From Platanthera guangdongensis (lineage: Eukaryota > Streptophyta > Magnoliopsida > Asparagales > Orchidaceae), in the NCBI GenBank assembly GCA_039583875.1, contig CM077157.1, positions 77,624,346-77,688,345 on the forward strand: a DNA stretch of 64,000 nucleotides. Reading direction: 5' to 3'. Each line of letters starts with the position of its first letter. Position 1 is the stretch's first letter. The notes beneath the pieces are model-generated. The model was given only the letters and a program-made list of their open reading frames with translations. It did not search any database and had not been told where the DNA came from. The position numbers were made by a program, and so were the translations under genes. Shown here one piece after another: positions 7,717-53,353 of this stretch.

Positions 7717-7793
7717 GTATGTCTTAGATTTTAGTTGTAATATGTTACATACCTTGCGTCTTATGCTTTGGTTGTATGACTATCGTGTTTTAG
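7717..7793 (+). other. Putative gag/protease intron of Gy-1 (77 nt)
   Basis: The donor is GTATGT at 7717 and the acceptor TTTTAG at 7788-7793. Joining 7716 to 7794 fuses the frame open from 7290 with the protease frame open to 8149 (phase 1, codon after Val-Val-Thr). Unspliced RNA terminates three codons on (TAG at 7725-7727). Gy-2 and Gy-4 have an intron at the same place. The last exon base is T here, where the others have G, which would weaken the donor and make this codon Cys. Confidence 0.75.
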
Positions 7794-8149
7794 GCTTTGT
7801 CGTGGTCATGGACTGTCCGACTCGAGTACTGTTTGATATAGGAGCTTCACATTCCTTCCTATCCGAGGACTTTGTGTCTCGTATTGGAGTGCCCTCTTCT
7901 GTGGTTAAAGATAGATTGGATGTGCTGCTACCCCATTGGTGTTCGATGCGCGTGGATAGAGTCCGTTATGTTAAAGTGCTTATTGGGAGCCAAACTTTTG
8001 ACTTGGAAGCGTCACTACTACCGATAGTAAAGTTTTACGTAATATTTGGCATAGATTGGCTCTCGGAGCAACGTGCATTCATCGATTATAGTTTGAAGAC
8101 TGTCAAGTTGGGATTGAATATGAGTCAAGAAACTACTTTTTTAGTATGA
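7794..8149 (+). pseudogene. Gy-1 protease
   Basis: This is a retroviral-type aspartic protease domain. The active-site triad region reads FDIGASHSF (about 7829-7855), so the usual D-T-G-A is D-I-G-A. The downstream flap and helix part 'VIFGIDWLSEQRAFIDY' (about 8039-8090) is typical of plant chromoviruses. It is open from the intron acceptor to a stop at 8147-8149, where the frame slips. The Thr-to-Ile change at the catalytic motif would be expected to cripple it. Confidence 0.85.
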
Positions 8150-11145: not shown

Positions 11146-11193
11146 GGTACACAGTTTAAAGTTGATTTAATTCCTTAATTTTCTGCATAACTT

Positions 11194-11228
11194 AATTTCG
11201 GGACGAAATTCTTTAAGTGGGGGAGATT
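11194..11228 (+). promoter_or_regulatory. Gy-1 conserved stem-loop and polypurine tract
   Basis: A perfect inverted repeat AATTTCG-GGA-CGAAATT (11194-11210) is followed by the purine tract AAGTGGGGGAGA (11215-11226) directly before the 3' LTR (TGTAACG at 11229). The purine tract is the expected primer for plus-strand DNA synthesis. The stem-loop recurs in Gy-2 and Gy-4 and, degraded, in Gy-5. Confidence 0.8.
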
Positions 11229-11401
11229 TGTAACGCCCCAAATTCCTTAAGGCAGGAAATGGTTCTCTGGGGGTTATCGCCCGGCGGTAGCTAGTTACCG
11301 CGTGGTGGTAGCTCCAGGGTTAGTGTCGGTAGTGCTGGGAGCTTCGCGAGGGTTGAGTCGACTCAGTGTTGGACTTACCTCGTGGCGGAAAGTTGTTACT
11401 G
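11229..11401 (+). mobile_element. Gy-1 3' LTR, segment 1
   Basis: The LTR starts TGTAACGCCCCAAATTCC after the purine tract. It carries palindromic words built on GGCGGTAGC/GTTACCGC at 11284-11311. It is cut by Co-1, and TACTG at 11397-11401 is the left copy of the Co-1 target duplication. Confidence 0.88.
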
Positions 11402-11589
11402 TGTTGGGTCCCGAGTTGGATTTGGGCTAGGTTCACTAAACTAGGATGTTTGACCCTACCTGTATAGCCAGGGTCATGTATGTGTCCTAGAGTATAGGAC
11501 ATGTCCTTAGAGTCAATACTGCACGGATCAGCCAACAACAGACTGCAGAAGACTGAATACTTAGAGAAATTTCAAAGACTCAGGAAAAT

Positions 11590-12160
11590 GAGTTCGACAT
11601 TCATCGAACTCAGCTCAATAAAAGTTGTGCTCAGCTCGACGAACTCGGAGACAATTCTCTGAGTTGAGCTCGACGAACTTAGTTCTCAGGTCGATGATTT
11701 ATGGATACTCTACTTCAACATTCCAAGTCCAGAATCATTTCTTTGAACTCCAATCGATGAATTCAAGTTCTTAGCTCGACGAACTTAGACTACAGTCTTG
11801 ACAAGTTTTATCAAGTAGTTGTTAGCAGTGCTCAGGTCGACGAACTTAGTCCTCAGGTCAATGATTTCTGGATACTCTACTTCAACATTCTTTTCTAGAA
11901 ACATCTCAATATTCTAAGTCCAGAAACATTTCACTGAACTCCAGTCGACGAAGTTAGATTCTCAGCTCGACGATATTGATGCACAGAATTGGCAAGGTTC
12001 TAGAGAAAGCAGTTAACTGTTCTTAGGTCGACGATCTTGGATCTCGGGTTGACGAACAACAATTATCTGGTCGATGAACATAACTTCTCAACTCGACGAA
12101 CTCTGGACCCAGGTCAATGAATTTTGTTCTTTGCTTGACGATTTCTATGCAGATCCAGAT
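11590..12160 (+). repeat. TCGACGAA word array in Co-1 5' LTR
   Basis: About fifteen copies and variants of CTCGACGAACT, GGTCGACGATTT and similar words are dispersed at irregular spacing. The 3' LTR has the matching array at 41980-42535, and the minus-strand LTR at 43884 has its own at 45005-45365. Some pairs face each other as inverted repeats. Confidence 0.85.
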
Positions 12161-12183
12161 TTGGACTTTTCCCTCCTACTGTC

Positions 12184-19888: not shown

Positions 19889-19889
19889 T

Positions 19890-25298: not shown

Positions 25299-26817
25299 CC
25301 TCCATCCCCCCATGGTACCCAAACTCCTTCACACACTCATATTCGCTCTCATAGTCCATCCCCCCATGGTACACCAACTCCATCACAATATGGTACACCA
25401 CCCTTATCTCCCATACGACCACATTTGGATGATATTCCCCTTTCCAATCTATCATCCCTACCATCCTTCAATCTACTCTCATCCCCCTCTTTATAATCCT
25501 TCCTCCCCAGATGAACCTATGCAAGACTCTATACCTTCTCCTCCACCATCATCTCCCATCCCCCATTTTGTCCCCAATGAGACATCTCCTACATTCCTGC
25601 CACTGGACCCCTCCATCATTCCACCTCTTCTAGCACTTCTTACTCCCCTCCTCAAAACCCTCATAACAGAGGCTATTTACCCTCTTGCTACCTCCATCTC
25701 TTCACTTGCTGCTCAAATCTCTACTCTCTCCATCCGTCCTTCTTCGGTTAGGGGCCTGGCTCCAGTATCCACTGAAACCAGGCAGGGGAAGATACTTTGT
25801 GAAGAAGAAGCAGCAGCAGCAGAAACAGTAGCAGTAGAAGCAGCAGTAACAGAAGTAGCAGCAGAAGCAACAGTAGAAGCAGAAGCAGATGCAGATGCAG
25901 CAGCATCTGATGATTTAATTGATTTACTTCATTTCATTGAGTCTGATATGGATTTGGATGAGTCTGTTTTGGATGAAAAAAAATCTGCTGGTGATTACAT
26001 TATAAATTCCATAGTAAATCTTGTAAATTTGTTGAACATGTTTGATATAGTTCATTTGAACTCTCTGCCAGAATACAGCATAAAGCCATCCATGGCTATA
26101 GTCCCCTATACCTCCCCAATAAGCCCCAAAGTTGCCAAGCAACTCATGGCTAGTTTTGCTACTATAGAGGCTCCTGCCATCCCATCTCCACCAAAAGCCG
26201 ATTCCCTCATTGTTGCATCCCCTCCCAGAGACATTTCTACTCCAACCTTTATTATGGATGACTCTCCAATACCTGATCTTGATGAGTTGATCATGGTTGG
26301 TATAGAAGAAGAGAATAAATCAGTTGCTGAAAGCACTGATGTGTACAGTTCTCCAGCTCCAGCTCCAGCTCCTCCTACAGCTCCTTCCCACGCAAAAAAA
26401 CCCTTGATATCTGCAGAGGCTCTGAAAGAAATAAATGCATTATATGATACTCCTCAAGACTCTTCAGATGATGATGATGATGAAGAGGATTCAGATGACA
26501 GTCCATCTGCTAAGAAAAAGAAACTTTCTAAGAAGAGGAAAGCTCCTCCACCTCCTGCTCCAAAACCCAACCCAACACATGATACTCCCTACTACATTCT
26601 TCAGAACATCACTCCATATAAGGGCATGCCAGCATGGATGTGGCTGTACAAAAACCAACAGAAAGATAGAAAGAAGAGCAAGAAATACTCACCTCCTCCT
26701 CAGAGATTCAGAAAAGCCCTCCTCCTCCTCCTTCACCTGCTGCTGGTGCTTCAGGTTCTTCATCTCAAAGGACTACCCAGTATCAAACATATCAGAGACA
26801 TCAGGGTAGGTCCTCCT
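25299..26817 (+). pseudogene. Co-1 extra ORF, part 2
   Basis: An open frame spans 25276-26841 (about 520 codons), but only the part up to 26817 is Co-1. It opens with a Pro/His/Ser-rich region repeating 'CCCATGGTACACCAACTCC' words; the original frame there seems to have slipped near 25490. 'PLATSISSLAAQISTL' may form a helix. An Ala/Glu-rich low-complexity run follows at 25806-25910, then an acidic run DDDDDEED (about 26467-26490) and a Lys-rich run KKKKLSKKRK that resembles a nuclear-localisation signal. Near 26700 the frame slips again, since continuity across Gy-2 is in another frame (Gln/Ser-rich). Function unknown. Confidence 0.75.
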
Positions 26818-29800
26818 TGTAACATCCCATGTTACTTCTAGACCCCTCAACTTAGATTGGGTTAGGCATGGGGTGAGATTTGAGGAGACCAGCTAGGTTT
26901 GACCCCAGGTAGTGGGTGGTAGCCATGTGGGGCCCACTATAAGACCATAGTCAAACTAGGTCAAACTAGCCTAAGTGGGGACCCTAGCCACACCATGACC
27001 CCACCACATTGCCCTAACCCTAAAGACAATCTAAGTGGCCCCTAGGGTTTGTCACTGGGTCAACATTTTGACCCCAGTTGACCAAGGTCAACCTTGGGCT
27101 TAATTTGGTCAAATCCACACCCATAGGCCTAATTAACCTAAGTGGGGCACCCCCTTGACCCAAACCAAGTTGGGTGGTGCCACTAGACCCATTTCCACCA
27201 GGTGGGGTCAGTCCACCCACCATAGTTGACCAGTCAACCCCAAAAGTCAAATTGGTCAACAATTTGACCTAAGGAATGAAATGAAGGCCAAGTCATTCCC
27301 CCTTGGACCAAGCCCACAAAAATTGGCCCATAGTCAGCCCAAGTGAACAAGACCAACCCTACCCCTCTAAATCAGGAGAGAGAATGCATGCAAGGGGGTA
27401 AAATTGGAAATTTTAGGAGAAGAGGAGAGAGAAAGAGGGATGAAGGAAATGGTGGCCACATGGCCACCCCATCAGCTGACTTAGGCTGCCCAAAACCAAG
27501 TGGCTGACCTCCCCTCTTCATTTCCAGCAGAATTCCAGAGCTGAGAGCCACATGTCAGCTGGGTGAAATCTCCAAAGCCCAAAACCGAGCTAGCATTGGA
27601 GATATCTCCACTTATAGCTCACCTCAGTCCAAACAGAGCTCACCATCAGCTTCAGAAGGCCGAGAGGAGTGGAATTCGACTACTTACTCATGGAAAACGG
27701 TGGAGAATTCAACTTTCGGGGAGGAGCTCGCCGGCGCACCACCACCACAGCAAACCGCCGCCTGACCCGCAGCCAAGCCCCGATTATGGTGCGTTTCACT
27801 TCACCTCTGCCCGCACTAGCTTCTTAGATCAAATAGGCGAGAGATCGGGCTCAATTGAGCCCGATGCCATGTGAGAAAATCTAGAAAATTCTAAGTTTCT
27901 GAAACCGCTCGGGATCGCCGTCGCCGCCGTCTTCCGCCGCCCCATCGCCGGGAAATGATAGCCACCACCACCGTGAAGGTGATGGCACCATTGGCCGGAG
28001 GTGGCGACGCCTCAGCTGGCCGGAAACCGCCGGCAAAATCGCTCCAGGTCGGCTCGATCTCAGCCGTTGGCTGGAGGTAGACGATAACCGGATCCCGTCG
28101 ATTCTTACTTTAAGATTCGTGCGCCGATTATTAATATAAATCAGATTAATATATGAATAGTGTCATTTTCTGTCACACTTAATCAGTACTTTTGCATGTT
28201 AAATTTAGGCCTCCTAGAGGCATTTCCAGACCTTAGACCTCAATGAAAAATGTAGCCTAGGGTCTTACCTTTAAAATGCCACCCTAAACATACATTTTGG
28301 AGTAGTGTACAGCCCTGTAGGACATTTCTCTTAGGACTGGTCCTAGACTAGGTCAAAAATTATATTGGATGCCCTGGTCTCAATATTAGTCACCATGATC
28401 CCAAATTTTGGGCACATGCATGATTAGGGCTTACTTACCTCCTGCCAAAATTTAGGAATTTTTGGAAAATATTTTCCTATAGTTTTTGGTAAAATATCAA
28501 AATTTAAATAAATGATATATATGGAGTTCTACTCCTCCCCATGGCCCCAAATTTTGGTGGTGGGTCAGTGGGGTCACCCTTGGTGCATGATAAAATTTTC
28601 AGCACCTTGGGATCACTGCATGTGGGAGAATCCACTTGCATGTGCTAGCCTATGTTAAGGCTTGGTGTGCAAATAGCAAAAATGCAAATTGGTGAATTTA
28701 GCCCAATGGTTGCATGCAAGAATTATGAAATTAATTATAGTGGCTCATTAGGGTAAATGTCACTCTTCAAATTAATAATGGAATTTTTGGAATCAAAATT
28801 CCATTTATTGGAATTTACTTTATAAATAGCTATTTTGGAATTAAAAATTGGAAAATAGGATTTATTCAAGTACAAATCCAAACAACATTACCAAGGCATA
28901 GATTACATCACATTTGACTTAGGAAAATTATGATTTCTCTGTTTTGAAGAACCTTGGAGTAGATACCCTAAATTTCCCATTTTACCCTTATCATGATAAT
29001 TCTTGAAATGATATATTTATACCTCTGAAAAATTTGGGATTTATTCTACTGTCATAAAATGTTGATATTAGTTTATCATGAATTTCTCAGAATTTTATTG
29101 GATGCATTACTTGTGTTAAATTAGTACAATGGCATTTTGGTAAATACCTTATAATGGAACCCCATAGGCCATCTTACATTCAATTTTGATGATTCTCTGC
29201 CAATAGCCATAATTTAGTGTCTTAAAGGCTCTGTAATTTTTCTGGAATTTTTGAGTATATAATGCTTATACTTCATGTGTAAAATGGAATTTATGTGGGA
29301 TTGTTATTAAATAGAAAATGACAATAAATAATTTAAGGAAAATTATGAAATTCTGAAGGCAGCAATATTTGGTTAATATACATCTCAGGAAAAATTTCCT
29401 AAGTCAGAGGATGCTTAATTAAATCACTTCATGTGTAAAGTGGCCGAGCATTTAAATTAAGAGAATTAATTAAATGACCATTTGGCCAGGAAAAATTATG
29501 AGAATCCTTAGGGTAGTTCCCTTAGTCCATAATACCTTAGGATAAATATTTAGAGGCAAGATGCCTTAAGTTTTGGAAGATCACATCTCTAGGGTAAACA
29601 TAGGTCATGGTCTGCATATAACACAAATAGGTCTTGCCTTAGGGAATTACCAGGGGACTGATTATCGGCAGAAATAAGAGAGAGTTCAACATATGTAACC
29701 CTGGTGGGTAGAGTTTTTCTTAGTGAGGGATCAAAAGTGCAAGTCTTAACTAACAACTGGAGTGGGGATCGGCGGAAGACCGTCGGTTTTCCCGGTAATA

Positions 29801-31512
29801 ACTTAAGTCACTAGGGTTATACTAAAGCAATAAGGAGAGCTGGGAAGATACATGGGTAGCCATCAACTAAAATAAATATCCTTGCGAAAGGGAACGCTGG
29901 GCGTAATCCCAACACAGTTCCTAGTGCCCCTTGAGAGCCCTTCACAGGGAATACCGGGGGCAGTCCTGGGATTAACCTTAAATCTCTAAGTATAATAAAC
30001 CGTAGGCAAGAGTAGTTTAATAGGTTAGGACATTGTTGTACCTTCTCGCCCGTGTGTGGGCTGGAGAGATTCATGACATATGCTCACCCGTTTTGGGGTT
30101 TGAGGGAGTTGGTATAAAGGCACGGATGTGCGTTCTCACCCGTGTTTGGGTTTGAGGGATTCAGGACGGGTTTTGGTCCTGCGAGCGGAAGGCTCGGTAT
30201 GAATTACTTGCATGTGCATAAATATCATGGCGGGGCATGCGGTACTGGCCGTTCGTCACACCGATGGCAGTACGGTGCACCAGGCGGTTGTGGGAGTTAG
30301 AGGGGCCAGTGGGTTGTTTTACACTGCGGTCTGGAGGACGACCCCCGATAACACAGATCCGACCCAACAAGACTGACGGGTTTGTCAGCAAAGTACGTAC
30401 GCGAGGCTCTAGAGTGCACCTTGGACGTGTACAGAGGCGTATGAGAGGGGTCTAAGGCTTGGTAGTGTGCATACCGGTCTAGAAGCGGAGACGCCCGCTC
30501 CGCTGCTGCCGTAGCCACAGCGGTGGTACCCGAGAGTGATGCTAGCTCTCAAAAAGTGGGAACTAAAGGTCTGTGATCACAGAGTCGTTGTGTGTGAGTT
30601 GCACTTGCCTGCGCATAAAATTGCATCATATCATTCATTCATATTAGGTCATACGCTTCATAGATCCTTATCATATAAATTAGTATGGGCTCTTTTATAT
30701 GATAAGTTAAATTTCCTGGAAATCCTAACTTATATATTTGTATGGGCATTTATATAAGTTAGGGTACGCTTGTGATGATAGCATAGTGGTAGCTTAGCTT
30801 ATTTACTTGTTCATACTGCTGCATCTTTACCTTTCATTACTGCACTACTTATTACTTGTTACTTGTACCGTACATAGAATTGCTAGAGTAGATCTACAGT
30901 ATTTATTACATCATTAGTTAGATATTGTCACCTGCTTCCACCTTGTTACCCCTTGTTGTCCTCCGCTTCGTCCTCCCGCTCGGTGCCTAGGAGCTGCGGG
31001 GCGAGGTGCGGAGGAAACGACTTAGTCTTTTTGACTAATGGTCGGTGACCAACTATTTTTAGGAGCCCGTGGAGATGGAGCACCAGCACGTCGAGGAGGC
31101 AGGACATGAGGAGCAGATACCGCTTCAGCAGGCTACCACTACTACTGCGCGTCCTCAGGTGGGACGAGTCTTGATGTTCTAGTTTAGCTTCCGCATTTAC
31201 CATTTTGTGAGAGAGAGATTTGATGTACTGGGCATAAGCCCTTTTTACTCTTTCTTCTGTACTTTTCTGTGGACTAGTGATGTACTATTCATTTCCTTTA
31301 TATGATTGTACTGTGACTTGTGGACTGATGGCATTTTATACTAAATTATACTTCTTATTTCTCATATTGGCCTACAGGTTTATGATCGTAGTAGCCGGCA
31401 GAATCGGCGTGTTGCGGTGTCGACTAACCCGTGAGTTAGTGCCACCGTAAGACGGCGGTTCCGGGCATAAGATCCGGTAGCCCTCCTTGGTAAGGGGGAG
31501 GGGGGTCTTACA
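26818..31512 (+). mobile_element. Gy-2 5' LTR
   Basis: It runs TGTAACATCCC to GGGGTCTTACA. The first 500 bp are rich in GTTGACC/GGTCAAC words. About 27640-28090 is GC-rich with CGCCGTCGCCGCCGTC runs. 28100-29700 is AT-rich. 29760-31510 is the part shared with the diverged LTR at 3230-6590. The open frames seen here (for example 27563-27874) recur in the other LTR only because the LTRs are copies; I see no protein family in them. Confidence 0.96.
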
Positions 31513-31513
31513 A

Positions 31514-31529
31514 ACTGGTATCACTTGAA
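31514..31529 (+). other. Gy-2 primer-binding site, partial match to tRNA-Met
   Basis: ACTGGTATCACTTGAA follows the LTR end at 31512. The first part matches the initiator tRNA-Met site TGGTATCAGAGC, but it diverges after TGGTATCA. Priming may be weaker, or another tRNA may be used. Confidence 0.6.
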
Positions 31530-31695
31530 CAACGATCATATGAGAAAGAAGTCCACAACATGGGACCACCCCCGCCCCAGCATTAGTTTGCGGACAAACT
31601 ATACAGCGGAAGCAGTGGTGTGCCCATGTGTAAAGTCACATAAATGGTCCACAAAGTACAATTTGTTAGGCCAATTCTGCTTTAACCTTACCTTT

Positions 31696-32814
31696 ATGCA
31701 ACCTCCACAGGTCGCAGCGCCGCAAAATGTGGCTCCTCCCCCTCCAGCTGCCACTCCATTCCTACATACGGAGATGGGGCAGACCCTGACGGCGATTTTG
31801 GATGCCTTTAGAGCCCAGCAAGTCCCGGCTCCACAGCCAAATCCGGGGTCGAGCTGGCTGAGTGCATTCAAGAGCCTGTCCCCACCGACGTACCGTGGGA
31901 CAGAGGATGCAGTGAAGACGGAAGAATGGCTGGAGGCCATACACGAGATCTTAGCGGGCATCAGCTGCCCAGTCGGCCAGGCAGTACCTCTAGCCACCTC
32001 CGTGCTAGAGGCCCACGCGAAGAGATGGTGGAAGTCAGTCCGGGAGACTACTTATGCGGACTTTGAGTTGTCAGAGATTTCTTGGGAGGAGTTTGGCGAT
32101 GTGTTCCTGGAGCACTTCGTCTCTGCTACGGACAGGGATGCTTTGGAGGAGAGGTTTTTGAACCTCAAGCAGGGGACCAGATCTGTGATAGAGTACCAGA
32201 GGGAGTTCTCCCACTTGGCCAGGTTCGCGGGGATTCAGGACACCGACGACAGGAGGTACGCAAAGAGGTTCTACCGGGGCCTCAGGGATGATCTGAGGCA
32301 GGCTCTGTTATTCATTTCACATGGCACATCAGGCAGATCATCGAGATGGAGAAGAAACTGGAGGCTGACCAGCTGATGGTGCGAGCCGGAGGGAAGAGAC
32401 CATTTGATGGATCGACATCAGGTGAGAGCAGTAGGGGCTCTCAGAGGGGCAGGACCATTGGATACAGGAGGGGTGGGGGACGTCGTCGTCCCAACTTCAG
32501 GCAGGAGCAGGGGCCTCCTCCAGCTTTGGCTCCCCCACCTCTACAGATGCACGATCCGAGGAGACAGGATGACCGAGGCCACCGACAAGTGGTTTGTTAT
32601 GGGTGCCGCCAGCCAGGGCACATCAGGTCGGAGTGCCCGCACCGATTCCATCCCCCTCCTCCTCCTCCACCTCCAGTGGCCCCTGTACAGCAGGGCCGAG
32701 GACGAGGCCGAGGACGAGGCCGAGGCCGGGGATATCATGGCCGGAGGCGCGAGCAGGAGCAGATATACGCCTTGGACCTCACAGAGCCGAGGAATCCCGA
32801 GGAGGTCATTACAG
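31696..32814 (+). CDS. gag: Gy-2 gag (one frame slip)
   Basis: Gag spans two frames. The first is open from 31525, with a likely start at the Met codon 31696 (MQPPQVAAPQN). It holds the retrotransposon Gag domain: 'FKSLSPPTYRGTEDAVKTEEW', 'AKRWWKSVRETTYADF', 'SWEEFGDVFLEHFVSA', 'RSVIEYQREFSHLARFA'. A one-base slip near 32325-32340 moves the frame, and the second part is open from 32346 (MEKKLEADQLM). It has a zinc knuckle CYGCRQPGHIRSEC at about 32595-32637, a Pro-rich run and a Gly/Arg-rich run (about 32690-32730) able to bind nucleic acid. The unspliced frame ends TGA at 32820-32822; splicing at 32814 leads into protease. Confidence 0.88.
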
Positions 32815-32916
32815 GTACTTGAAGTTAGTTTTGAGTTTCCTTAAATTTTCCAATGATATATATATAGTACCTGGAACCATAGGATAACAATTAACCTTCA
32901 CATAAACAAACCTCAG
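32815..32916 (+). other. Putative gag/pol intron of Gy-2 (102 nt)
   Basis: Donor ACAG|GTACTT at 32815, acceptor CCTCAG|GC ending 32916, AT-rich between. Joining 32814 to 32917 completes a Gly codon and fuses Gag (Val-Ile-Thr) to Ile-Val-Met of pol without a frame change. Read through, Gag ends two codons after the donor. Position and phase equal those in Gy-1 and Gy-4. Confidence 0.8.
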
Positions 32917-35900
32917 GCATAGTCATGATCAGCGGCAAGCCTGCCCATACTCTTTTCGACACGGGTGCGTCACACTCGTTCGTATCCGAGGCCTTCATCG
33001 ACGGACTCGAAGGCGTGGAGAGGTTCCCTGGACTAGAGATGAGGGTACGCCTACCCGATGGGTCGGAGCTGCGGACTACTGCACATTGCGACATGGAGGC
33101 CGAGATTGGCGGCAAGGCTTTTGAGGCGCCGGCGACTATTCTGAAGCTGCAGGACTTTGACTTGATCTTGGGCATGGCCTGGTTGCACCGGAACCATGCC
33201 CAGATAGATTGTCCGTCCAGGAGGATCACGCTGAGACATGGCGACTCTCATGTTATCGTTGAAGGTATCCAGCCTATCTGCCACCTACTATTATCTTCTA
33301 TACAGGCTGTGAAGGCCCATGAGCAGGGCGAAGAAGTCTATATTGTCTGCTTCGAGATGGTGGGGACAGAGGCGACTATCTCAGATATTCCGGTGGTTCG
33401 GGATTTCTCCGACGTATTCCCGGAGAAATTGCCCGGGCTACCGCCTGCTAGAGACTTGGATTTCAGGATCCAGCTAGTGCCGGGAGCGAAGCCGGTGTCC
33501 CGAGCACCCTACAGGATGGCTCCTAGAGAGTTAGCAGAGTTCAGAACTCAACTGCAGGAGCTAGTCGAGTCAGGATTTGTACGGCCTAGTTCATCGCCAT
33601 GGGGAGCGCCAGTTCTATTTGTGAAGAAGAAGGACGGATCACTGCGATTATGTATAGATTACCGGGAGCTGAACCGGTTGACGGTCCGAAACACCTACCC
33701 TCTGCCTCGGATAGATGAGTTATTTGACCAGCTACAGGGAGCATTCTGGTTCTCCAAGTTAGATTTGCGATCCGGCTATTATCAGCTCCGTATCAGGGAA
33801 GAAGACATACCGAAGACGGCTTTCAGTTCGCGCTATGGATTATACGAATTCACGGTGATGCCTTTTGGGCTCACGAATGCTCCTGCTGCATTCATGAGTC
33901 TGATGAACCGTGTTTTCGAGCCTTTCTTAGATCGCTTCGTGATAGTATTCATCGACGACATCCTTATATATTCTCGGACTCAGGAGGAGCATACGGAGCA
34001 CTTGGCACAGGTCCTGCAGAGGTTGAGGGAGACACAGATGTACGCAAAATTTTCGAAGTGCCAGTTCTGGTTGCAGGAGGTGGCTTTCCTGGGGCACACG
34101 ATCAGCGGGGCTGGGTTAGCAGTGGACCCGGCCAAGATAGAGACAGTGAGGGATTGGCCACGGCCGAAGACCGCATCTGACATCCGCAGTTTCTTGGGAC
34201 TAGCAGGCTATTACCGCAAGTTCGTGGAGGGGTTCTCGAGGATAGCACTCCCCCTCACGTCCTTGACGATGAAGGATACAGATTTTGTTTGGTCAGAGCG
34301 GTGTGAGACGGCTTTTCAGGAGCTGAAGGACCGACTCATCTCATCCCCCATTCTCGCGCTTCCATCCGGGAGCGAAGGATTCCAGATCTACACGGACGCC
34401 TCTTATCAGGGGATGGGTGCAGTCTTGATGCAGCACGGACACGTCATCGCTTATGCTTCGCGACTGTTGAAGAAGCATGAGCATAATTATCCAGTACATG
34501 ATCTAGAGCTCGGGGCTGTGGTTTTCGCCCTGAAGATATGGAGGCATTACTTATATGGGATTCATTGTGACATCTTTTCAAATCACAAGAATCTCAAGTA
34601 TATCGATACTCAGAAGGACCTAAACCTGATACAGAGGAGGTGGCTGGAGTTTCTCTGTGATTATGATTACAAGATCCACTATCATCCGGGAAAAGCGAAC
34701 ACGGTTGCGGATGCTTTGAGCAGGAGGGCCGGCACTTCTGGACCGGAGCCCCGATTGATGTCCATGGAGCTACTTCAGATGATGGAGGACATGCGTATTA
34801 CCGTGGTGTCCGAGACTGAGCCAGATGTATATAGAGAGTATTTGAGCTCCGTGATCAGCTGCGATGATATACAGGAGCGCATCCGAGCACATCAGAGGCT
34901 GGATGCTGCGTTACAGCCGATTTTCAGTGCCCTAGAGAGGGGCAAGGTCGAGGACTACACGTTGCAGGATGATCTTCTTCGGTTCCGGGGGCGCATCTAC
35001 ATACCAGCAGGAGGCAGTATCCGGGAGGACATACTCCGAGAGGCACATTGCTCGAGATATTCAGTGCACCCCGGCATCACCAAGATGTGGGCAGATTTGC
35101 GGAGATCTATGTATTGGCCCGGGATGAAGAGGGAGATCACGGATTTTGTGACTCACTGCGAGACCTGCCAGCGTGTGAAGGCGGAATGCAAGAGCCCGGG
35201 AGGTTTACTACAGCCACTGCCAGTTCCAGAGTGGAAGTTCGAGGACATTGTTATGGACTTTGTACACGGATTGCCGCGCTCCCACTCCGGACATGATTCT
35301 ATATGGGTTATAGTGGACAGATTGACCAAAGTCGCGCGGTTTATTCCAGTTCGGAAGGATGCCCCAGTCGCAGTTCTGGTGAGACTATTTGTGGAGCAGT
35401 ACATCAGATATCATGGTATCCCCAGGACTATTGTTTCGGACCGTGATGGTCGGTTCACTTCGAGCGAGTGGAGGGCCGTGCATGCTCACTTGGGATCTCG
35501 TCTTACCTTTAGTACCGCCTTCCACCCGCAGACTGACGGACAGACCGAGCGGACCATCCGGACCATGGAGGACCTGCTCAGATTATGCATATTGGATACG
35601 GGGAGGCCTTGGGAGAGGCTGCTGCCATTGATCGAGTTCTCGTATAATAACAGCCACCAGGCTAGCATCAGGATGGCTCCGTACGAGGCTCTTTATGGGA
35701 GGAGATGCCGGACACCGCTATCATGGGTACAGGATGTGGACACCAGGGCTCTGGGATCCGATTATATAGAGGACACTGAGGCTCAGGTTCGATTGATCAG
35801 GGATCGGCTACTGGAGGCCCAGAGCAGACATGCAAAGTATTATGATGCTCGGCACCGGCAGGTGGAGTTCCAGGTTGGAGACAGGGTATTCTTGAAGATA

Positions 35901-36317
35901 CGTCCGGTACACGGTGTTTCACGGGTACGGAGGCACAAGAAGCTCAGTCCACGATACATGGGGCCCTACCTGATCCTGGAGCGGATCGGCCCCTTAGCTT
36001 ACCGACTGCAGCTGCCACCGGAGTTGGGTGCACTACATGACGTCTTCCATGTCTCTTCCTTATGGAGAGCTCTCCTTCGGCCGGAGCAGCACATCACTAC
36101 TACAGCCGGACCGGTGGAGCCTGACAGATCAGTGAGATTGGAGCCGATCCGGATTGACGATACAGCCATCCGAGTGTTGCGGAAGAAGAAGGTTCCCCTT
36201 GTGAAGGTGCTGTGGTCCAACCATGGACGGGAGGAGCACACTTGGGAGCCGAGAGATCTGATGCTGGAGCAACACCCGGAGCTATTCGCATCAGGTACAT
36301 TTAAGTTATGCTTTTAA
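32917..36317 (+). CDS. pol: Gy-2 pol: protease, RT, RNase H, integrase, chromodomain-like tail
   Basis: A single open frame of 1,130 codons counts from the Met at 32925, and the intron acceptor lies 8 bp before it. Protease FDTGASHSF is at residues 11-19. RT spans about 215-375 with 'RLCIDYREL' (241-249), '[10 protein letters not shown]' (311-320) and the catalytic FIDDILIYS (342-350). RNase H spans about 480-605: 'YTDASY' and '[13 protein letters not shown]' are present, but the third acidic site reads SNHKNLKY where relatives have TDHKSLKY. Integrase: HHCC region near 705-760 ('[11 protein letters not shown]'), DDE core with '[10 protein letters not shown]', '[13 protein letters not shown]' and '[10 protein letters not shown]'. 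The tail '[21 protein letters not shown]' is chromodomain-like, thought to steer integration in chromoviruses. Apart from the RNase H change it looks intact. Confidence 0.95.
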
Positions 36318-36363: not shown

Positions 36364-36402
36364 AATTTCGGGGACGAAATTATTTTCTTGTTTATTGGAA
36401 TT
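36364..36402 (+). promoter_or_regulatory. Gy-2 conserved stem-loop; canonical purine tract absent
   Basis: AATTTCG-GGGA-CGAAATT (36364-36381) is the same stem-loop as in Gy-1 and Gy-4. The 21 bases between it and the LTR (36382-36402) are T-rich, where relatives have AAGGGGGGAG-like purines. The GGGGA of the loop is the only G-run close by. Confidence 0.7.
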
Positions 36403-39400
36403 TGTAACATCCCATGTTACTTCTAGACCCCTCAACTTAGATTGGGTTAGGCATGGGGTGAGATTTGAGGAGACCAGCTAGGTTTGACCCCAGGTAGTGG
36501 GTGGTAGCCATGTGGGGCCCACTATAAGACCATAGTCAAACTAGGTCAAACTAGCCTAAGTGGGGACCCTAGCCACACCATGACCCCACCACATTGCCCT
36601 AACCCTAAAGACAATCTAAGTGTCCCCTAGGGTTTGTCACTGGGTCAACATTTTGACCCCAGTTGACCAAGGTCAACCTTGGGCTTAATTTGGTCAAATC
36701 CACACCCATAGGCCTAATTAACCTAAGTGGGGCACCCCCTTGACCCAAACCAAGTTGGGTGGTGCCACTAGACCCATTTCCACCAGGTGGGGTCAGTCCA
36801 CCCACCATAGTTGACCAGTCAACCCCAAAAGTCAAATTGGTCAACAATTTGACCTAAGGAATGAAATGAAGGCCAAGTCATTCCCCCTTGGACCAAGCCC
36901 ACCAAAATTGGCCCATAGTCAGCCCAAGTGAACAAGACCAACCCTACCCCTCTAAATCAGGAGAGAGAATGCATGCAAGGGGGTAAAATTGGAAATTTTA
37001 GGAGAAGAGGAGAGAGAAAGAGGGATGAAGGAAATGGTGGCCACATGGCCACCCCATCAGCTGACTTAGGCTGCCCAAAACCAAGTGGCTGACCTCCCCT
37101 CTTCATTTCCAGCAGAATTCCAGAGCTGAGAGCCACATGGCAGCTGGGTGAAATCTCCAAAGCCCAAAACCGAGCTAGCATTGGAGATATCTCCACTTAT
37201 AGCCCACCTCAGTCCAAACAGAGCTCACCATCAGCTTCAGAAGGCCGAGAGGAGTGGAATTCGACTACTTACTCATGGAAAACGGTGGAGAATTCAACTT
37301 TCGGGGAGGAGCTCGCCGGCGCACCACCACCACGGCAAACCGCCGCCTGACCCGCAGCCAAGCCCCGATTATGGTGCGTTTCACTTCACCTCTGCCCGCA
37401 CTAGCTTCTTAGATCAAATAGGCGAGAGATCGGGCTCAATTGAGCCCGATGCCATGTGAGAAAATCTAGAAAATTCTAAGTTTCTGAAACCGCTCGGGAT
37501 CGCCGTCGCCGCCGTCTTCCGCCGCCCCATCGCCGGGAAATGATAGCCACCACCACCGTGAAGGTGATGGCACCATTGGCCGGAGGTGGCGACGCCTCAG
37601 CTGGCCGGAAACCGCCGGCAAAATCGCTCCAGGTCGGCTCGATCTCAGCCGTTGGCTGGAGGTAGACGATAACCGGATCCCGTCGATTCTTACTTTAAGA
37701 TTCGTGCGCCGATTATTAATATAAATCAGATTAATATATGAATAGTGTCATTTTCTGTCACACTTAATCAGTACTTTTGCATGTTAAATTTAGGCCTCCT
37801 AGAGGCATTTCCAGACCTTAGACCCTCAATGAAAAATGTAGCCTAGGGTCTTACCTTTAAAATGCCACCATAAACATACATGTTGGAGTAGTGTACAGCC
37901 CTGTAGGACATTTCTCTTAGGACTGGTCCTAGACTAGGTCAAAAATTATATTGGATGCCCTGGTCTCAATATTAGTCACCATGATCCCAAATTTTGGGCA
38001 CATGCATGATTAGGGATTAATTACCTCCTGCCAAAATTTAGGAATTTTTGGAAAATATTTTCCTATAGTTTTTGGTAAAATATCAAAATTTAAATAAATG
38101 ATATATATGGAGTTCTACTCCTCCCCATGGCCCCAAATTTTGGTGGTGGGTCAGTGGGGTCACCCTTGGTGCATGATAAAATTTTCAGCACCTTGGGATT
38201 ACTGCATGTGGGAGAATCCACTTGCATGTGCTAGCCTATGTTAAGGCTTGGTGTGCAAATAGCAAAAATGCAAATTGGTGAATTTAGCCCAATGGTTGCA
38301 TGCAAGAATTATGAAATTAATTATAGTGGCTCATTAGGGTAAATGTCACTCTTCAAATTAATAATGGAATTTTTGGAATCAAAATTCCATTTATTGGAAT
38401 TTACTTTATAAATAGCTATTTTGGAATTAAAAATTGGAAAATAGGATTTATTCAAGTACAAATCCAAACAACATTACCAAGGCATAGATTACATCACATT
38501 TGACTTAGGAAAATTATGATTTCTCTGTTTTGAAGAACCTTGGAGTAGATACCCTAAATTTCCCATTTTACCCTTATCATGATAATTCTTGAAATGATAT
38601 ATTTATACCTCTGAAAAATTTGGGATTTATTCTACTGTCATAAAATGTTGATATTAGTTTATCATGAATTTCTCAGAATTTTATTGGATGCATTACTTGT
38701 GTTAAATTAGTACAATGGCATTTTAGTAAATACCTTATAATGGAACCCCATAGGCCATCTTACATTCAATTTTGATGATTCTCTGCCAATAGCCATAATT
38801 TAGTGTCTTAAAGGCTCTGTAATTTTTCTGGAATTTTTGAGTATATAATGCTTATACTTCATGTGTAAAATGGAATTTATGTGGGATTGTTATTAAATAG
38901 AAAATGACAATAACTAATTTAAGGAACATTATGAAATTCTGAAGGCAGCAATATTTGGTTAATATACATCTCAGGAAAAATTTCCTAAGTCAGAGGATGC
39001 TTAATTAAATCACTTCATGTGTAAAGTGGCCGAGCATTTAAATTAAGAGAATTAATTAAATGACCATTTGGCCAGGAAAAATTATGAGAATCCTTAGGGT
39101 AGTTCCCTTAGTCCATAATACCTTAGGATAAATATTTAGAGGCAAGATGCCTTAAGTTTTGGAAGATCACATCTCTAGGGTAAACATAGGTCATGGTCTG
39201 CATATAACACAAATAGGTCTTGCCTTAGGGAATTACCAGGGGACTGATTATCGGCAGAAATAAGAGAGAGTTCAACATATGTAACCCTGGTGGGTAGAGT
39301 TTTTCTTAGTGAGGGATCAAAAGTGCAAGTCTTAACTAACAACTGGAGTGGGGATCGGCGGAAGACCGTCGGTTTTCCCGGTAATAACTTAAGTCACTAG

Positions 39401-41097
39401 GGTTATACTAAAGCAATAAGGAGAGCTGGGAAGATACATGGGTAGCCATCAACTAAAATAAATATCCTTGCGAAAGGGAACGCTGGGCGTAATCCCAACA
39501 CAGTTCCTAGTGCCCCTTGAGAGCCCTTCACAGGGAATACCGGGGGCAGTCCTGGGATTAACCTTAAATTCTAAGTATAATAAACCGTAGGCAAGAGTAG
39601 TTTAATAGGTTAGGACATTGTTGTACCTTCTCGCCCGTGTGTGGGCTGGAGAGATTCATGACATATGCTCACCCGTTTTGGGGTTTGAGGGAGTTGGTAT
39701 AAAGGCACGGATGTGCGTTCTCACCCGTGTTTGGGTTTGAGGGATTCAGGACGGGTTTTGGTCCTGCGAGCGGAAGGCTCGGTATGAATTACTTGCATGT
39801 GCATAAATATCGTGGCGGGGCATGCGGTACTGGCCGTTCGTCACACCGATGGCAGTACGGTGCACCAGGAGGTTGTGGGAGTTAGAGGGGCCAGTGGGTT
39901 GTTTTACACTGCGGTCTGGAGGACGACCCCCGATAACACACATCCGACCCAACAAGACTGACGGGTTTGTCAGCAAAGTACGTACGCGAGACTCTAGAGT
40001 GCACCTTGGACGTGTACAGAGGCGTATGAGAGGGGTCTAAGGCTTGGTAGTGTGCATACCGGTCTAGAAGCGGAGACGCCCGCTCCGCTGCTGCCGTAGC
40101 CACAGCGGTGGTACCCGAGAGTGATGCTAGCTCTCAAAAAGTGGGAACTAAAGGTCTGTGATCACAGAGTCGTTGTGTGTGAGTTGCACTTGCCTGCGCA
40201 TAAAATTGCATCATATCATTCATTCATATTAGGTCATACGCTTCATAGATCCTTATCATATAAATTAGTATGGGCTCTTTTATATGATAAGTTAAATTTC
40301 CTGGAAATCCTAACATATATATTTGTATGGGCATTTATATAAGTTAGGGTACGCTTGTGATGATAGCATAGTGGTAGCTTAGCTTATTTACTTGTTCATA
40401 CTGCTGCATCTTTACCTTTCATTACTGCACTACTTGTTACTTGTTACTTGTACCGTACATAGAATTGCTAGAGTAGATCTACAGTATTTATTACATCATT
40501 AGTTAGATATTGTCACCTGCTTCCACCTTGTTACCCCTTGTTGTCCTCCGCTTCGTCCTCCCGCTCGGTGCCTAGGAGCTGCGGGGCGAGGTGCGGAGGA
40601 AACGACTTAGTCTTTTTGACTAATGGTCGGTGACCAACTATTTTTAGGAGCCCGTGGAGATGGAGCACCAGCACGTCGAGGAGGCAGGACATGAGGAGCA
40701 GATACCGCTTCAGCAGGCTACCACTACTACTGCGCGTCCTCAGGTGGGACGAGTCTTGATGTTCTAGTTTAGCTTCCGCATTTACCATTTTGTGAGAGAG
40801 AGATTTGATGTACTGGGCATAAGCCCTTTTTACTCTTTCTTCTGTACTTTTCTGTGGACTAGTGATGTACTATTCATTTCCTTTATATGATTGTACTATG
40901 ACTTGTGGACTGATGGCATTTTATACTCAATTATACTTCTTATTTCTCATATTGGCCTACAGGTTTATGATCGTACTAGCCGGCAGAATCGGCGTGTTGC
41001 GGTGTCGACTAACCCGTGAGTTAGTGCCACCGTAAGACGGCGGTTCTGGGCATAAGATCCGGTAGCCCTCCTTGGTAAGGGGGAGGGGGGTCTTACA
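36403..41097 (+). mobile_element. Gy-2 3' LTR
   Basis: A 4,695-bp copy of 26818-31512, running from TGTAACATCCC to GGGGTCTTACA. Differences from the 5' copy include two single-base indels (near 28241/37826 and 29982/39567) and roughly twenty-three substitutions. It is followed by CTCCT and the rest of the Co-1 extra ORF. Confidence 0.96.
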
Positions 41098-41102
41098 CTC
41101 CT

Positions 41103-47316: not shown

Positions 47317-47327
47317 CTATTTATAGG
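47317..47327 (-). promoter_or_regulatory. TATA box of the solo LTR
   Basis: CCTATAAATAG on the minus strand, followed downstream by CGCCCCATACC. It is the only good TATA-like word in a GC-balanced region and fits an LTR promoter reading leftward. Confidence 0.55.
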
Positions 47328-48267: not shown

Positions 48268-50243
48268 TGTAACACCCCCATCTGTCAAATGACATATAAC
48301 AGAAGGTCCAGCTAGAACCCGACGCCATATACCACGGACAGACGAAAGGGTTATATAAGAATATAAAAAATCCAACTTTAACTACTCGCCCTAACACAGA
48401 GCATTCTAGCGGAAGCTTTTAAATAGTTGGAAAGAACTCATAATTGAATAACAACTATCATGAATCTCCACATACTACCATAGGAATAAAATAACAAATA
48501 CACTGAAAGTACTTGGTCTTATGGCCTTACAAGAGTTTACTTAACAAATTATTGATTTACATACATCGGCTCGCAGGCCGGCCACACATGACAAAAATAA
48601 AAACAACAATTCGCTTTGGCCTTCGAGGGCCAGCTCAGCAACATGGGCTTCAGCCCGCTATTTGGTACTTGGCTCCGCAGCACCTGCAAGCAACATTCCA
48701 CCGCACGGTGGCAAACAAAGTAACGGTCAGCCAAAGCCGACCAAATTATAATGACCCCGCCCCTTACTCGGGACGGTGGAGCTCGTTCCCTGCATTTCAT
48801 TAGCCCAGCTAAACAATATAGTACAAACATACTTCACCACAGGTGTAGGCTCACACGACCAAACACCCCATGCACTCAGGGCACATTATCGGTGAATCCG
48901 GTCAATTCCGTGGATTCACCACCATCCCTGGGATGGCAACATCATGAGCATTTTAGTCTTTCTGACCACAGTCTAAGACTCCCGACTATGCCAATGGCCA
49001 GTCACTCTATGGGTATCTAGCACCGAACCACATAGCCTAGGTCCGATTCCACTTGCCCGTTGCTCACTCCGCATTGTCACTTTAAAACGTACGCACGGGC
49101 CAAGCTTCTCTCAGATCCCAAAACATTTCCAAACATCACATAGCCCAGTTATGTTCAAGGCTGGCTCCCCGACCGCCAAGTTAGCAGAACAACGTTTCCA
49201 CTCATTTTTTCGGGTGTGCCTTAGAGTTAATCCCCAAGGATCCCTACTGTAATCTACCATGTAGAAACCCGAAAACACAAATCACGGAGTCTTGTTCGGC
49301 AAACCATACAATATGCAACATCACTGATCAAGACCAACACGTCCGGGTAGGCTTCACACACAATGTTTATGTCCGTACTTCGGTTCCGGACTCTATATGC
49401 AACACAAAGGGGACTATTTACGTCAACCCCAAGGAACAACGCACACTCACCACACACTCGCGGGAGCGGGTTTCCTTATGCAAAATAAAGAGAGCTTCAC
49501 ATGCTTAAGTAGAGAATCATTACCCTTGTAGTTCGCTTTTGCGCCATGGGAATCTATCCAGATGGAAAGCTTCGCAAGGGAATTTCCTCCACAAATCCAG
49601 TCCCGGTTCTCGATTCGGTGCTTCGATGCTCTGCCGGTGGCTGGAATCCTCCTCTTCCTTCCTCCTTGCTCTCTCCTTTCTCTAACTCCTTAGAAAGAGA
49701 AAGCTTAAGAGAAAATGAGGAATTAATCCTCAATTCCCGGCCTTAACAAAGCAGGAACACACCTGGTCCGTCAGATCTTATATAAAGAAAAAGAACGGCT
49801 CAGATCTGCCCAAAATTCCTCAGTCCTGGGCTGAACACGGCCTTGCACACGGCCGTGTCCCAGGCCACGTGCCCCGATCCAGGCACGATCGTCGAGCACA
49901 GAAAAGGACACCGGTCAAGACACGCCCGTGTCTCAACCTGACATGCCCGTGTCGTGTCCTGACACGCCCGTGACCTAGGAGCGTGTCACAAATAACCATG
50001 ACGCCAACCGTCACGTCCCTTAGGAACATGGGTGGTGACACGGGTATACACACACCCGTATCAAACTTGATACGCCCATGTCGCTTCTGTGTTTCCTGCC
50101 GTGTCCTTGTCTGGACACAGCCGGCCAACACAGAGGAAGACACGACCTTGGACACGCCCATGTCACAGGCTGTGCACCCCTATTAAGGCAGCAAAAATTC
50201 CTTTGGATGCGACCTGTTCGATTACGATTTTCGGGGTGTTACA
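48268..50243 (-). mobile_element. Gy-4 3' LTR (left)
   Basis: 1,976 bp, from TGTAACACCCCC to GGGGTGTTACA on plus. It shares the AGAAGGTCCAGC...CATATACCAC end with Gy-5 (and, in the other orientation, with the solo LTR at 14660-14710). About 49830-50175 is the GACACGGGCGTGTC palindrome array. It contains about 800 bp missing from the right LTR. Confidence 0.93.
49830..50175. repeat. ACACGCCCGTGTC palindrome array, Gy-4 left LTR
   Basis: Words such as CACGGCCGTGTCCCAGG, GACACGCCCGTGTC and GACACGGGTATACAC recur about a dozen times, as in the right LTR (55640-55985) and the solo LTR at 12225. A GATCGTCGAGCAC word at 49888 links it to the TCGACGA family. Confidence 0.88.
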
Positions 50244-50249
50244 AATCTC

Positions 50250-50278
50250 CCCCCTTTAAAGAATTTCGTCACGAAATT
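50250..50278 (-). promoter_or_regulatory. Gy-4 purine tract and conserved stem-loop
   Basis: On the minus strand AATTTCG-TGA-CGAAATT (50278-50262) precedes CTTTAAAGGGGGGAG, which abuts the 3' LTR. A similar 28-bp block lies near the other end of the internal region at 54811-54838. Confidence 0.8.
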
Positions 50279-50345
50279 ATGTAAAGGCACACAAAATTTA
50301 AATGTTACCTGAGTGGAATAACTCGGGGTATTCCTCCAACATACT

Positions 50346-53275
50346 TTACTCTCGCTCGCATGAAAGCTCCTCATGTCCGTATTTATCCCAACGGACTTTA
50401 ACAATTCGTATTTCCTTGTTGCGGAGTCGTTTGACTTCAAAGTCTTCAATGCGTACTGGTTTGACCTTTGTCGTCAACACGTAATTAACCGGCACTTGAT
50501 TGACCGAAAAGACCTGTGAAGGCTCTTGCACCGCCTTCCGCAACACCTATATATGGAACACATCGTGTAGCCCACTCAACTCCACTGACATCTTCAATCG
50601 ATACGCTGCTTCACCAACCCGCTCCAGAATTTCAAACGGTCCAAGGTATCTCAGACTCAACTTCTTCAAGCGTCAAACTCACGAGACACCCTTTAACGGC
50701 TTGATTTTCAAATACACCCTGTCGCAAACACCAAACTTCACGTTCCTATGCTTAGCGTTATAGTATTTTGCCTGCCTATCTTGAGCGATCTTCAACCATT
50801 CCTGAACTATACTTATCATTGAACTGGCATATTCCACCGCTTGACATTTGAATAACTTTGACTCGCCTGTCTCCAACCAAGACAACATCATGCGACACTT
50901 TATCCCTTACAAGGACTCAAAAGGCGCCATTCTAATAGTCGCTTGATAGTTGTTGTTATATGCAAACTCCACCAAGTACAGGTGATATTCCCACTGCTAT
51001 CCGAAATCCAGGACATATATGCAAAGCATGTCCTCCATCGTCATGTTGACCCTCTCGGTCTTACCATCCGTTTGTAGATAAAGGCTATGCTGAAACTCAA
51101 CTTAGTTCCCAACAGACTATGCACCAACCTCCAAACATTCGAAGTGAAGCGTCCATCTCGGTCACTAACAATACTGTGGGGCAGACCATGCAATCAAACA
51201 ATATTATCCACATAGAGTTTGGCTAACGTTTCCACCAGATCTTCCTTCCTGTTCGGGATGAAGTGCGACATTTTTGTCAATCTATCTACGACCACCCAGA
51301 TGGCGTTGTTTGCCCTCTGCAACTTTGGTAAACTATGCATAAAATCCAAAGAAATGTCGTCGAACTTCCACTCCTGGATAGGCAAGGACTTCAAGAAACC
51401 TCCGGGCTTCTGGAACTCTGCCTTCACCAAGGCAGATGTTTGGCACTTGACCACATAAAGTGCTACATCCTTCTTTAATCCTGGCCACCAGAACAACTTC
51501 TTCATGTCTTTAGACATCTTCGTGCTCCCCGGGTGGATTGAGTACTTGGTATGATAGCCACGTACATCAACTCCTCCCGAAGATTATTCGCACTAGGGAT
51601 GCATAGATGACCGTTCCTCCATAGCAGTTCATCCTCAACAACAAATTGGGAATTTTACCAATCCAAAGATTCATCTAAGATCTGCTTCATGCTGCTATCC
51701 TGAACCAAAGCCCGCCAAAACCTATCAGCTAGGTCATACTGCACCTCTGTCCAATACAATTTCACCTCGACACTAGTCTGCTTGTCGATGTAGGAGATCT
51801 CTAATCACTCTAAATCACGGACCAAACTCTCATCATGTACCGACAACCAGCTGGCCTGCGCAGGAGCCATGCGACTCAATGCATCCGCCACTGCATTTCC
51901 TTTCCCAGGAACATAATGTATCTCGAAGGTGTAGTCCCCTAGGAACTCCATCCACCTTCGCTGCCTCATGTTCAGGTCCTTCTGATCTAACAAGTACTTC
52001 AGGCTCTTATGATCGGTGTAGACAACACAGGCCACTCCCGTATCACCATTATCTTCGTCGGATCCACCGCTATCCCTTCACCACTAATAATATGACCAAG
52101 CAACGCTACCGAGTATAACAAAAACTCACACTTGTAGAACGTAGCATACAACTGATTCCTTCTCAATGTCTCCAACACCATATGTAGATGCTTGTAGTGA
52201 TCATCCTAACACTGCGAGTCTACCAAGATATCGTCGATAAATACTATCACGAAACGGTCTAGGTACTCTCTGAACGTCCTGTTCATCAGATCCATAAACA
52301 CGGATGGCGCATTGGTCAACCCAAATGGCATGACCGTGAACTCGTAATGCCCAAACTGCGTGCTGAACGCTGTCTTTGGGATGTCGCTTTCCCTTATCCT
52401 TAATTGGTAGTAGCCGGATTTCAGATCTAACTTCGAATATACTGTTGACCCAACCAACTGATCAAACAGGTCGTCAATCCTTGGGATCGGGTACTTATTC
52501 TTTTCCGTAAGCTTGTTCAATTCTCGATAGTTGATACAGAGTTGCAAGCTCCCATCCTTCTTCTTAACGAAGAGGACCGGTCAACTCCAAGGCGACGAAC
52601 TTGGACGCACATACCCTTGTTCTAACAACTCTTGCAGTTGCACCTTCAGCTCTACCATCTCTCTTGGCGCTATCCGATATGGAGAGCGTGACACCGGTTT
52701 GGCACCCGACACATGCTCAATAGTAAAATCAATCTCCTGTAGGAGAGGGGCTCTTGGGAGATCATTTGGGAACACATCAGGATACTCAGACACAACTGGA
52801 ATACTGCCCAGACTTGGCTTAGGCGTTGAGGTCTGCACTAATATGACAAACAGCTCTGCCCCAGACCGAACTGCCTTGATCACCTGAAGGGCCGACATCA
52901 AAGTCTTACTCGACCCATTCATTCTCGCAAACGTAGTCTCCCGATCAGTATTCAGTCCCAACTTAACCTCCTTTCAGTTGTAATTAATGCATGCTCGCTG
53001 CTCCGAGAGCCAGTCCATACCAAATATTACGTCAAACTCTACTAATGGCAGTACCGACGCTCGCAAATCAAACTCCGGGTCCCCAATCCATATCTTTACC
53101 ACACAGATTCTATCCGCGCGCATTGAGCACCCTTTGGGCAACAACACATCCAACTTGTATTTTATCATCGAGGAAGGGACTCCGATGAGCGATACGAATC
53201 TTTCGGACAAGAAGGAATGTGAAGCTTCCGTATCAAACAGGGCTCTCGCCGGACAATCGAAAATCAACACAAAGC
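50346..53275 (-). pseudogene. pol: Gy-4 pol: protease to chromodomain-like tail (broken)
   Basis: Protease runs from 53275 to 52974 with active site FDTEASHSF (Gly-to-Glu in D-T-G). A linker is at 52961-52581. RT is at 52547-52206 ('[11 protein letters not shown]', '[13 protein letters not shown]', FIDDIL intact). RNase H has '[10 protein letters not shown]' at about 52030. Integrase is at 51517-51194 ('WWPGLKKDVALYVVKCQTSALVKAEF', in which a zinc-site Cys reads Ser; 'DRLTKMSHFIPNR'). Tail pieces are at 50891-50679 and 50546-50346, ending 'VKVRWDKYGHEELSCERE'. Frame slips and stops separate these. It is clearly inactive. Confidence 0.92.
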
Positions 53276-53353
53276 CTAACATCAACATTTATAAGGTAAC
53301 ATATAAAAAGGTAGCAACTACATAAAGTTAAACTGCTATAATTTAACTCATAC
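53276..53353 (-). other. Putative gag/protease intron of Gy-4 (78 nt)
   Basis: On the minus strand: donor ACAG|GTATGAG at 53353, acceptor GATGTTAG|GC ending 53276. Joining 53354 to 53275 completes a Gly codon between Val-Val-Thr and Phe-Val-Leu-Ile, in frame. Unspliced, Gag ends Gly-Met-Ser-stop. Same position and phase as in Gy-1 and Gy-2. Confidence 0.8.

Follow-up and report, generated by a model that had tools for sequence, protein, structure and literature searches.

Plant long terminal repeat (LTR) retrotransposons generally lack introns, with Ogre and EVADE named as exceptions, according to a 2025 review (PMC12786077). In Ogre, an element of the Tat lineage, part of the transcripts lose an intron that lies between coding blocks, and the spliced RNA gives the full polyprotein; the survey describing this names Bianca and Ogre as elements whose frames are separated by a gap (PMC6317226). 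The Ty1/copia element BARE1 is described as carrying, close to the border of gag and protease, a facultative intron of 104 nucleotides (nt), U-rich and with GT-AG ends, which separates production of Gag alone from that of Gag-Pol (PMC3735527), and in EVADE-type Ty1/copia elements a spliced, prematurely terminated short RNA makes Gag (PMC12786077, PMC7730604). Here we describe a GT-AG segment at the gag/protease boundary of three Ty3/gypsy elements, Gy-1, Gy-2 and Gy-4, which lie in a 64,000-nt window (the whole stretch of DNA analysed) of the orchid Platanthera guangdongensis (GenBank assembly GCA_039583875.1, contig CM077157.1, positions 77,624,346 to 77,688,345, forward strand). Our searches of partial, open-licence literature found no description of a gag/protease intron in chromoviruses.

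An earlier note on this DNA, made from the sequence alone, had reported the three segments, and its coordinates proved correct to the single base (Table 1). The common position that it claimed was also confirmed: each segment interrupts, in the same phase, the last codon of a V-[VI]-T-G motif between gag and protease, exon 1 giving the first base of the codon and exon 2 the second and third, so that removal fuses the two frames. With slashes marking the segment ends, the junctions read V-V-T + T/GTATGT...TTTTAG/GC in Gy-1, V-I-T + G/GTACTT...CCTCAG/GC in Gy-2 and V-V-T + G/GTATGA...TGTTAG/GC in Gy-4 (minus strand). The split codon is Gly in Gy-2 and Gy-4, and the Gy-1 copy has T for G. Read without splicing, Gag ends inside the segment by the fourth codon (C-M-S-stop, G-T-stop and G-M-S-stop, respectively). 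The base composition is U-rich and intron-like, with U at 48, 33 and 46% in the segments of Gy-1, Gy-2 and Gy-4 against 17, 12 and 20% in the 102 nt upstream and 35, 22.5 and 35% downstream; GC is lower in the segments than in the 102 nt on either side. Gy-1 and Gy-4 fall in the same clade of the tree described below and Gy-2 in another, so the first two are not independent cases. The window copies are damaged (the Gy-2 gag frame is broken between 31471-32376 and 32292-32822, and other stops occur in Gy-1 and Gy-4), and the case was therefore tested in other genomic copies.

Taking the sequence evidence as a whole, we put at roughly four in five the probability that the segment is a real spliceosomal intron, that unspliced RNA gives Gag and spliced RNA Gag-Pol, and that spliced RNA is occasionally reverse-transcribed. 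In a chromovirus-like lineage of orchid type, a single ancestral intron would then interrupt the Gly codon where gag meets protease. Unspliced RNA, which presumably serves as the main packaged genome too, would yield a Gag ending, in the families covered here, 2-14 residues past the last Thr codon of gag; translation of spliced RNA across the joined frame would yield Gag-Pol, and Gag could be made in excess if splicing is partial. It is plausible that the Gag:Pol ratio is set in this way. Spliced RNA would sometimes be reverse-transcribed into intronless copies whose gag and pol frames join without a break, and a few such copies may have given rise to separate lineages.

Copies were sought in the source genome (4.25 Gb, 274 contigs), and loci fetched twice were counted once (L061/L121, L062/L122, L063/L123, L065/L127, L069/L128, L073/L129, L082/L135, L087/L124, L088/L126, L090/L136 and L101/L125). 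Copies within a family are related, so their counts are not independent, and independence lies in the three clades. For Gy-2, at least 150 genomic matches to the protease were found, and 30 loci chosen by protease match were fetched. The segment is kept in 31 of 31 copies (30 loci and the window), at 101-111 nt and with the ends CAG/GTACTT...CCTCAG/GC throughout; in 17 of the 30 loci, gag is open for at least 390 amino acids upstream of the donor and protease-reverse transcriptase for at least 727. Variation is about threefold higher in the segment than in its coding flanks, with a mean p-distance of 0.050 against 0.016 and 0.015 (the exon 2 value is biased low because loci were picked by protease match). 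Indels number 0.85 per pair in the segment, compared with 0.26 and 0 in the flanks. In a third clade, P0125-type, the segment is present in all 15 loci read of 150 listed (14 parsed, plus L067). Gy-4-type copies were searched with a query beginning after the junction, which listed 150 rows; 80 were read (rows 2-62 by rank, row 1 being the window, plus 19 lower rows with open frames of at least 900 amino acids), and 78 of these keep the segment at 76-81 nt. Loci L061-L063 carry an intron of 75-76 nt at the same point. Across all copies read the intron is thus 75-111 nt long, its place and phase are common to the three clades, and the GT-AG ends are conserved together with their donor and acceptor contexts; the donor is mutated in L067, L092, L100, L165 and L166, and the acceptor in L154, L168 and L185.

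The stop just inside the intron, which the earlier note had seen in the three window elements, is common but not universal. Unspliced Gy-2 copies read G-T-stop (TGA or TAA) in 30 of 31 cases, L025 having lost the first stop and reading GTSS-stop, whereas all 14 parsed P0125-type copies continue for 11-14 residues, split codon included, before a stop. In several Gy-4-side copies the last exon 1 base is changed, to T for G in Gy-1 (7716), L092, L153, L158, L162, L166, L169, L179 and L184, and to A for G in L089, L091, L170, L175 and L181; this may be ordinary decay. In the Gy-4-type copy L064 the donor site is lost, and the gag and protease frames are continuous through the intron remnant. An origin of the intron by tandem duplication, for which intron and exon ends were compared in five examples, found no support (lowest shuffle p 0.07).

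Splicing is supported because copies without only the GT-AG segment are expected from reverse transcription of spliced RNA. Copies lacking exactly this segment occur in all three clades, in support of an intron whose place between gag and protease is fixed. A 37-nt joined probe found 8 intronless Gy-2 copies, against 814 found by the donor probe at equal length and mismatch limit, while the reversed-control probes of this search gave 0 matches; a 35-nt joined probe found 3 intronless P0125-type copies. The frame is open across the junction in every one of these (8/8 and 3/3), two of the P0125-type copies reading V-V-T-D. Among the 80 Gy-4-type copies read, two are intronless: L088, an exact loss, and L178, which fits the junction. 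With up to 3 mismatches allowed, the Gy-4-type joined probe gave 171 matches, although those with exactly 3 take in intron ends as well; at up to 2 mismatches there were 48 among the listed matches (44 not beginning TTGG, counted by eye), a figure that forms no strict ratio with the 3092 matches of the intron-bearing probe at up to 3 mismatches. Some copies in the two states are close relatives. L121 (= L061, with intron) and L034 (intronless) share 96.0% and 96.8% identity in the sequences flanking the junction, and L124 (intron) and L127 (none) are 100% identical over the 102 nt before it and 97.6% identical over the 500 nt after it. Loci L032-L059 form a subfamily of intronless copies, in the same group as the intron-bearing L061-L063, and all three clades contain both states. 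The earlier note had named, as evidence against its proposal, relatives whose frame runs uninterrupted through this codon. Taken literally, such elements do exist, in the same genome as well as on other plant-like contigs; those of the same genome look like intron-loss derivatives and would thus support splicing.

Several observations weigh against this reading. We infer splicing in the cell from DNA copies, and L178 also lacks one base just upstream of the junction. Intronless lineages, too, have long open frames, which shows that the intron is dispensable for replication. When the genome was searched with a junction-spanning piece of P0103, a Platanthera zijinensis gene model, 146 of the 150 rows listed aligned from residue 1, which leaves no space for an intron; the loci fetched from this search were intronless in 30 of 30 cases, a query of this kind favouring intronless copies because it spans the join; among the rows listed, genomic copies are at most 89% identical to the P0103 piece. 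The P. zijinensis gene models that run across the same join (P0063, P0103, P0109, P0112, P0113, P0123, P0125 and P0126) speak for splicing, but they may have been spliced by the annotators or may lie on intronless copies. Because AGG stands at both intron ends in each family (CAGG in Gy-2), any one loss might stem from microhomology deletion between these repeats, and the segment might be an unspliced spacer. Yet exact loss recurs in three clades and has founded a multi-copy subfamily, and partial deletions of more than 1-2 nt were seen in 0 of the 80 Gy-4-type copies read, while 2 lack the segment altogether; we consider such a spacer improbable, and splicing with subsequent reverse transcription would account for all of these observations. 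Finally, 24 of 37 parsed Gy-4-type copies (37 of 40, with L088, L092 and L100 not parsed), 3 of the 30 Gy-2 loci and the window Gy-1 and Gy-4 have one frame free of stops across the intron.

The last point bears on programmed frameshifting or readthrough across the segment as the source of Gag-Pol, which the earlier note had dismissed. That dismissal is supported for Gy-2, where the segment lengths of the 17 long-open-frame copies fall in all three classes modulo 3 and no frame stays open through the segment in 27 of 30 copies, and likewise for the P0125-type (14/14 parsed copies closed in all frames) and L061-L063 (3/3). It does not extend to the Gy-4-type copies and the window Gy-1 and Gy-4 in which one of the three frames stays open, and there the argument therefore rests on the empty sites. 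Overall, we hold frameshifting or readthrough to be highly improbable. An independent start of protease-Pol at an internal AUG would be served by the protease-frame AUG that lies between the last stop and the DTG motif in 30/30 Gy-2, 13/14 parsed P0125-type and 21/37 parsed Gy-4-type copies, as well as in Gy-1, Gy-2 and Gy-4 of the window; this AUG is absent from all three of L061-L063 and from 16 of the 37 parsed Gy-4-type copies, and we give such a start scarcely any credence.

A tree of 41 rows, with plant proteins of unknown clade as the outgroup, was used to follow the two states. Five changes of state are required to account for the intronless rows, and branches with good support force four of these; in the Gy-4-type clade the intronless rows adjoin or nest among intron-bearing rows; the branching order of the Gy-2 clade is not settled by the tree. 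One gain followed by several losses is the simplest account. Repeated gains at one proto-splice site, with the intronless state ancestral, would agree with the GGTA found at the codon, in a continuous frame, in 3 of 4 distinct other-plant relatives read as DNA (L137, L138/L139 and L142), and with the place of L131 and L132, which branch outside the Gy-2 intron rows at a fork that is unresolved. However, the tree joins the intronless L127 to the intron-bearing L125 at 97/89 and puts the L032-type group (99/95) inside a group (100/98) holding the intron rows L121-L123. A single gain with several losses is also more parsimonious than separate gains at one exact base in three clades, and we regard the repeated-gain history as quite improbable.

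Outside the source genome, 13 loci were found in bacterial assemblies (L137-L149), and 5 of them (4 distinct) are readable at the codon. All of these, L137, L138/L139, L142 and L147, lie on plant-like contigs and are continuous there; L141, L143, L144 and L146 are too divergent, and the matches in L140, L145, L148 and L149 stop short of the codon. Plant-like chromovirus-type contigs thus occur in public bacterial assemblies of Mycobacterium, Geminicoccus, Solirubrobacter and others. L138 equals L139 over the stretch compared, though the two come from different genera, which looks like contamination. Two scans for relatives in viral contigs gave none that was confirmed.

It is also conceivable that the intron is spliced but serves RNA export or enhances expression; almost all RNA that is translated would then be spliced, and the Gag:Pol ratio would be set otherwise, as in intronless single-frame elements. 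The readable plant-like relatives that are continuous at the codon fit this view, as do same-genome intronless relatives with open frames of ~1500 amino acids; moreover, AT-rich introns are rich in stops anyway, and the loss of the first stop in L025 further weakens the argument from stops. On the other side, the unspliced stop has been kept through stop-codon changes (TGA/TAA in Gy-2; TAA/TAG in L061-L063), and a Gag-only P. zijinensis gene model, P0121, ends at the unspliced stop with ...DVVTGTV, as predicted for unspliced RNA. A Gag profile search for further Gag-only proteins gave 2 matches, one of them useful. We judge a role confined to export or expression unlikely, though well short of negligible. 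In the orchid models P0063 and P0103-P0126, F or I follows V-[VI]-[TN]-G, where most other listed plant relatives have T, M or similar; this residue may mark intron-bearing ancestry.

To our knowledge, how single-frame plant Ty3/gypsy elements make more Gag than Pol is poorly understood. Intron-bearing and intronless sister elements, some of them 97-100% alike beside the junction, coexist here in one genome as a natural experiment; the share of intronless copies would be a readout of spliced-RNA packaging frequency, and a comparison of RNA and protein between the two element types would bear directly on splicing-based Gag:Pol control. More tentatively, at a little under even odds, the intron may have been kept for long despite replication through RNA because packaging strongly favours unspliced RNA, at once Gag message and genome. 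Spliced RNA would be a separate Gag-Pol message, whose rare packaging repeatedly founds coexisting intronless escape lineages.

The remaining anatomy of the window elements is collected in Table 1. The earlier note had called the elements Tekay-like chromoviruses, a placement that we treat as tentative. Of the features expected in that group, Gy-2 and P0103 show the Ty3/gypsy order of protease, reverse transcriptase, RNase H and integrase, and no chromodomain was found after the integrase of either at E 0.001. Six further proteins were searched for this domain: P0126, P0125 and P0063 score 25.0, 19.7 and 14.1 bits, under the curated cut-off of 25.1 bits, and P0109, P0113 and P0123 gave none. 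Among the 120 matches listed, the best full-coverage match to the Gy-2 protease-reverse transcriptase is P0063, a P. zijinensis gene model (64%); a further protein search gave 8 matches, all from P. zijinensis, with the query itself among them. A metagenome protein, P0062, is 65% identical over 96%, many higher identities among the matches listed being partial only; it starts exactly at the protease LFDTG motif and possibly represents another element with gag and protease split. The 4.7-kb repeat of Gy-2 extends into the start of gag, and the window therefore holds the remains of a head-to-tail tandem Gy-2; elsewhere in the source genome, C6 and C12 also hold paired Gy-2 matches, at a spacing of ~9.59 kb. 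The primer-binding-site-like match of Gy-4 is one that we take to correspond to initiator tRNA-Met. A tandem array with a 77-nt period occupies positions 679-1294 of the window.

Table 1. Features of the Gy-1, Gy-2 and Gy-4 elements, in window coordinates.
Feature	Position	Strand	Remarks
Gy-1 putative gag/protease intron	7717..7793	+	77 nt, phase 1; unspliced stop TAG 7725-7727
Gy-2 putative gag/protease intron	32815..32916	+	102 nt, phase 1; unspliced stop TGA 32820-32822
Gy-4 putative gag/protease intron	53276..53353	-	78 nt, phase 1; unspliced stop TAA 53345-53343
Gy-2 gag, first part (Retrotrans_gag, PF03732)	31471..32376	+	frame broken in window copy
Gy-2 gag, last part (zinc knuckle)	32292..32822	+	ends V-I-T-G-T-stop within intron
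Gy-2 exon 2 (protease, reverse transcriptase, RNase H, integrase, SH3_Tf2-1)	32917..36317	+	open frame 32895-36317
Gy-2 left direct repeat, 4.7 kb (terminal repeat, leader, gag start)	26817..31512	+	99.5% identical to right copy
Gy-2 right direct repeat, 4.7 kb	36402..41097	+	99.5% identical to left copy
Gy-4 terminal repeat, part	49353..50243	-	90% identity with 55164-56053
Gy-4 other terminal repeat, part	55164..56053	-	90% identity with 49353-50243
Primer-binding-site-like match TGGTATCAGAGC adjoining Gy-4 terminal repeat	54861..54872	-	

Set beside the described systems, the orchid arrangement would be like Ogre in that unspliced RNA ends the first product and spliced RNA continues in frame. 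It differs in that the Ogre intron lies further downstream, between GAG-PROT and the reverse transcriptase, whereas the orchid intron lies upstream of the protease DTG and measures 75-111 nt. BARE1, which belongs to a different superfamily, is the mirror image: there, splicing creates the stop and spliced RNA gives Gag, while in the orchid elements the stop is inside the intron and unspliced RNA would make Gag. EVADE-type elements likewise uncouple Gag from Pol by splicing, but they are Ty1/copia elements and make Gag from the spliced short RNA. A further likeness is to foamy (spuma) viruses, in which Pol depends on a spliced RNA (PMC7828637). The chromovirus-type elements of other plants share with the orchid elements the domain order, a G-T or G-M boundary and the aspartic protease motif, and differ in being continuous at the codon.

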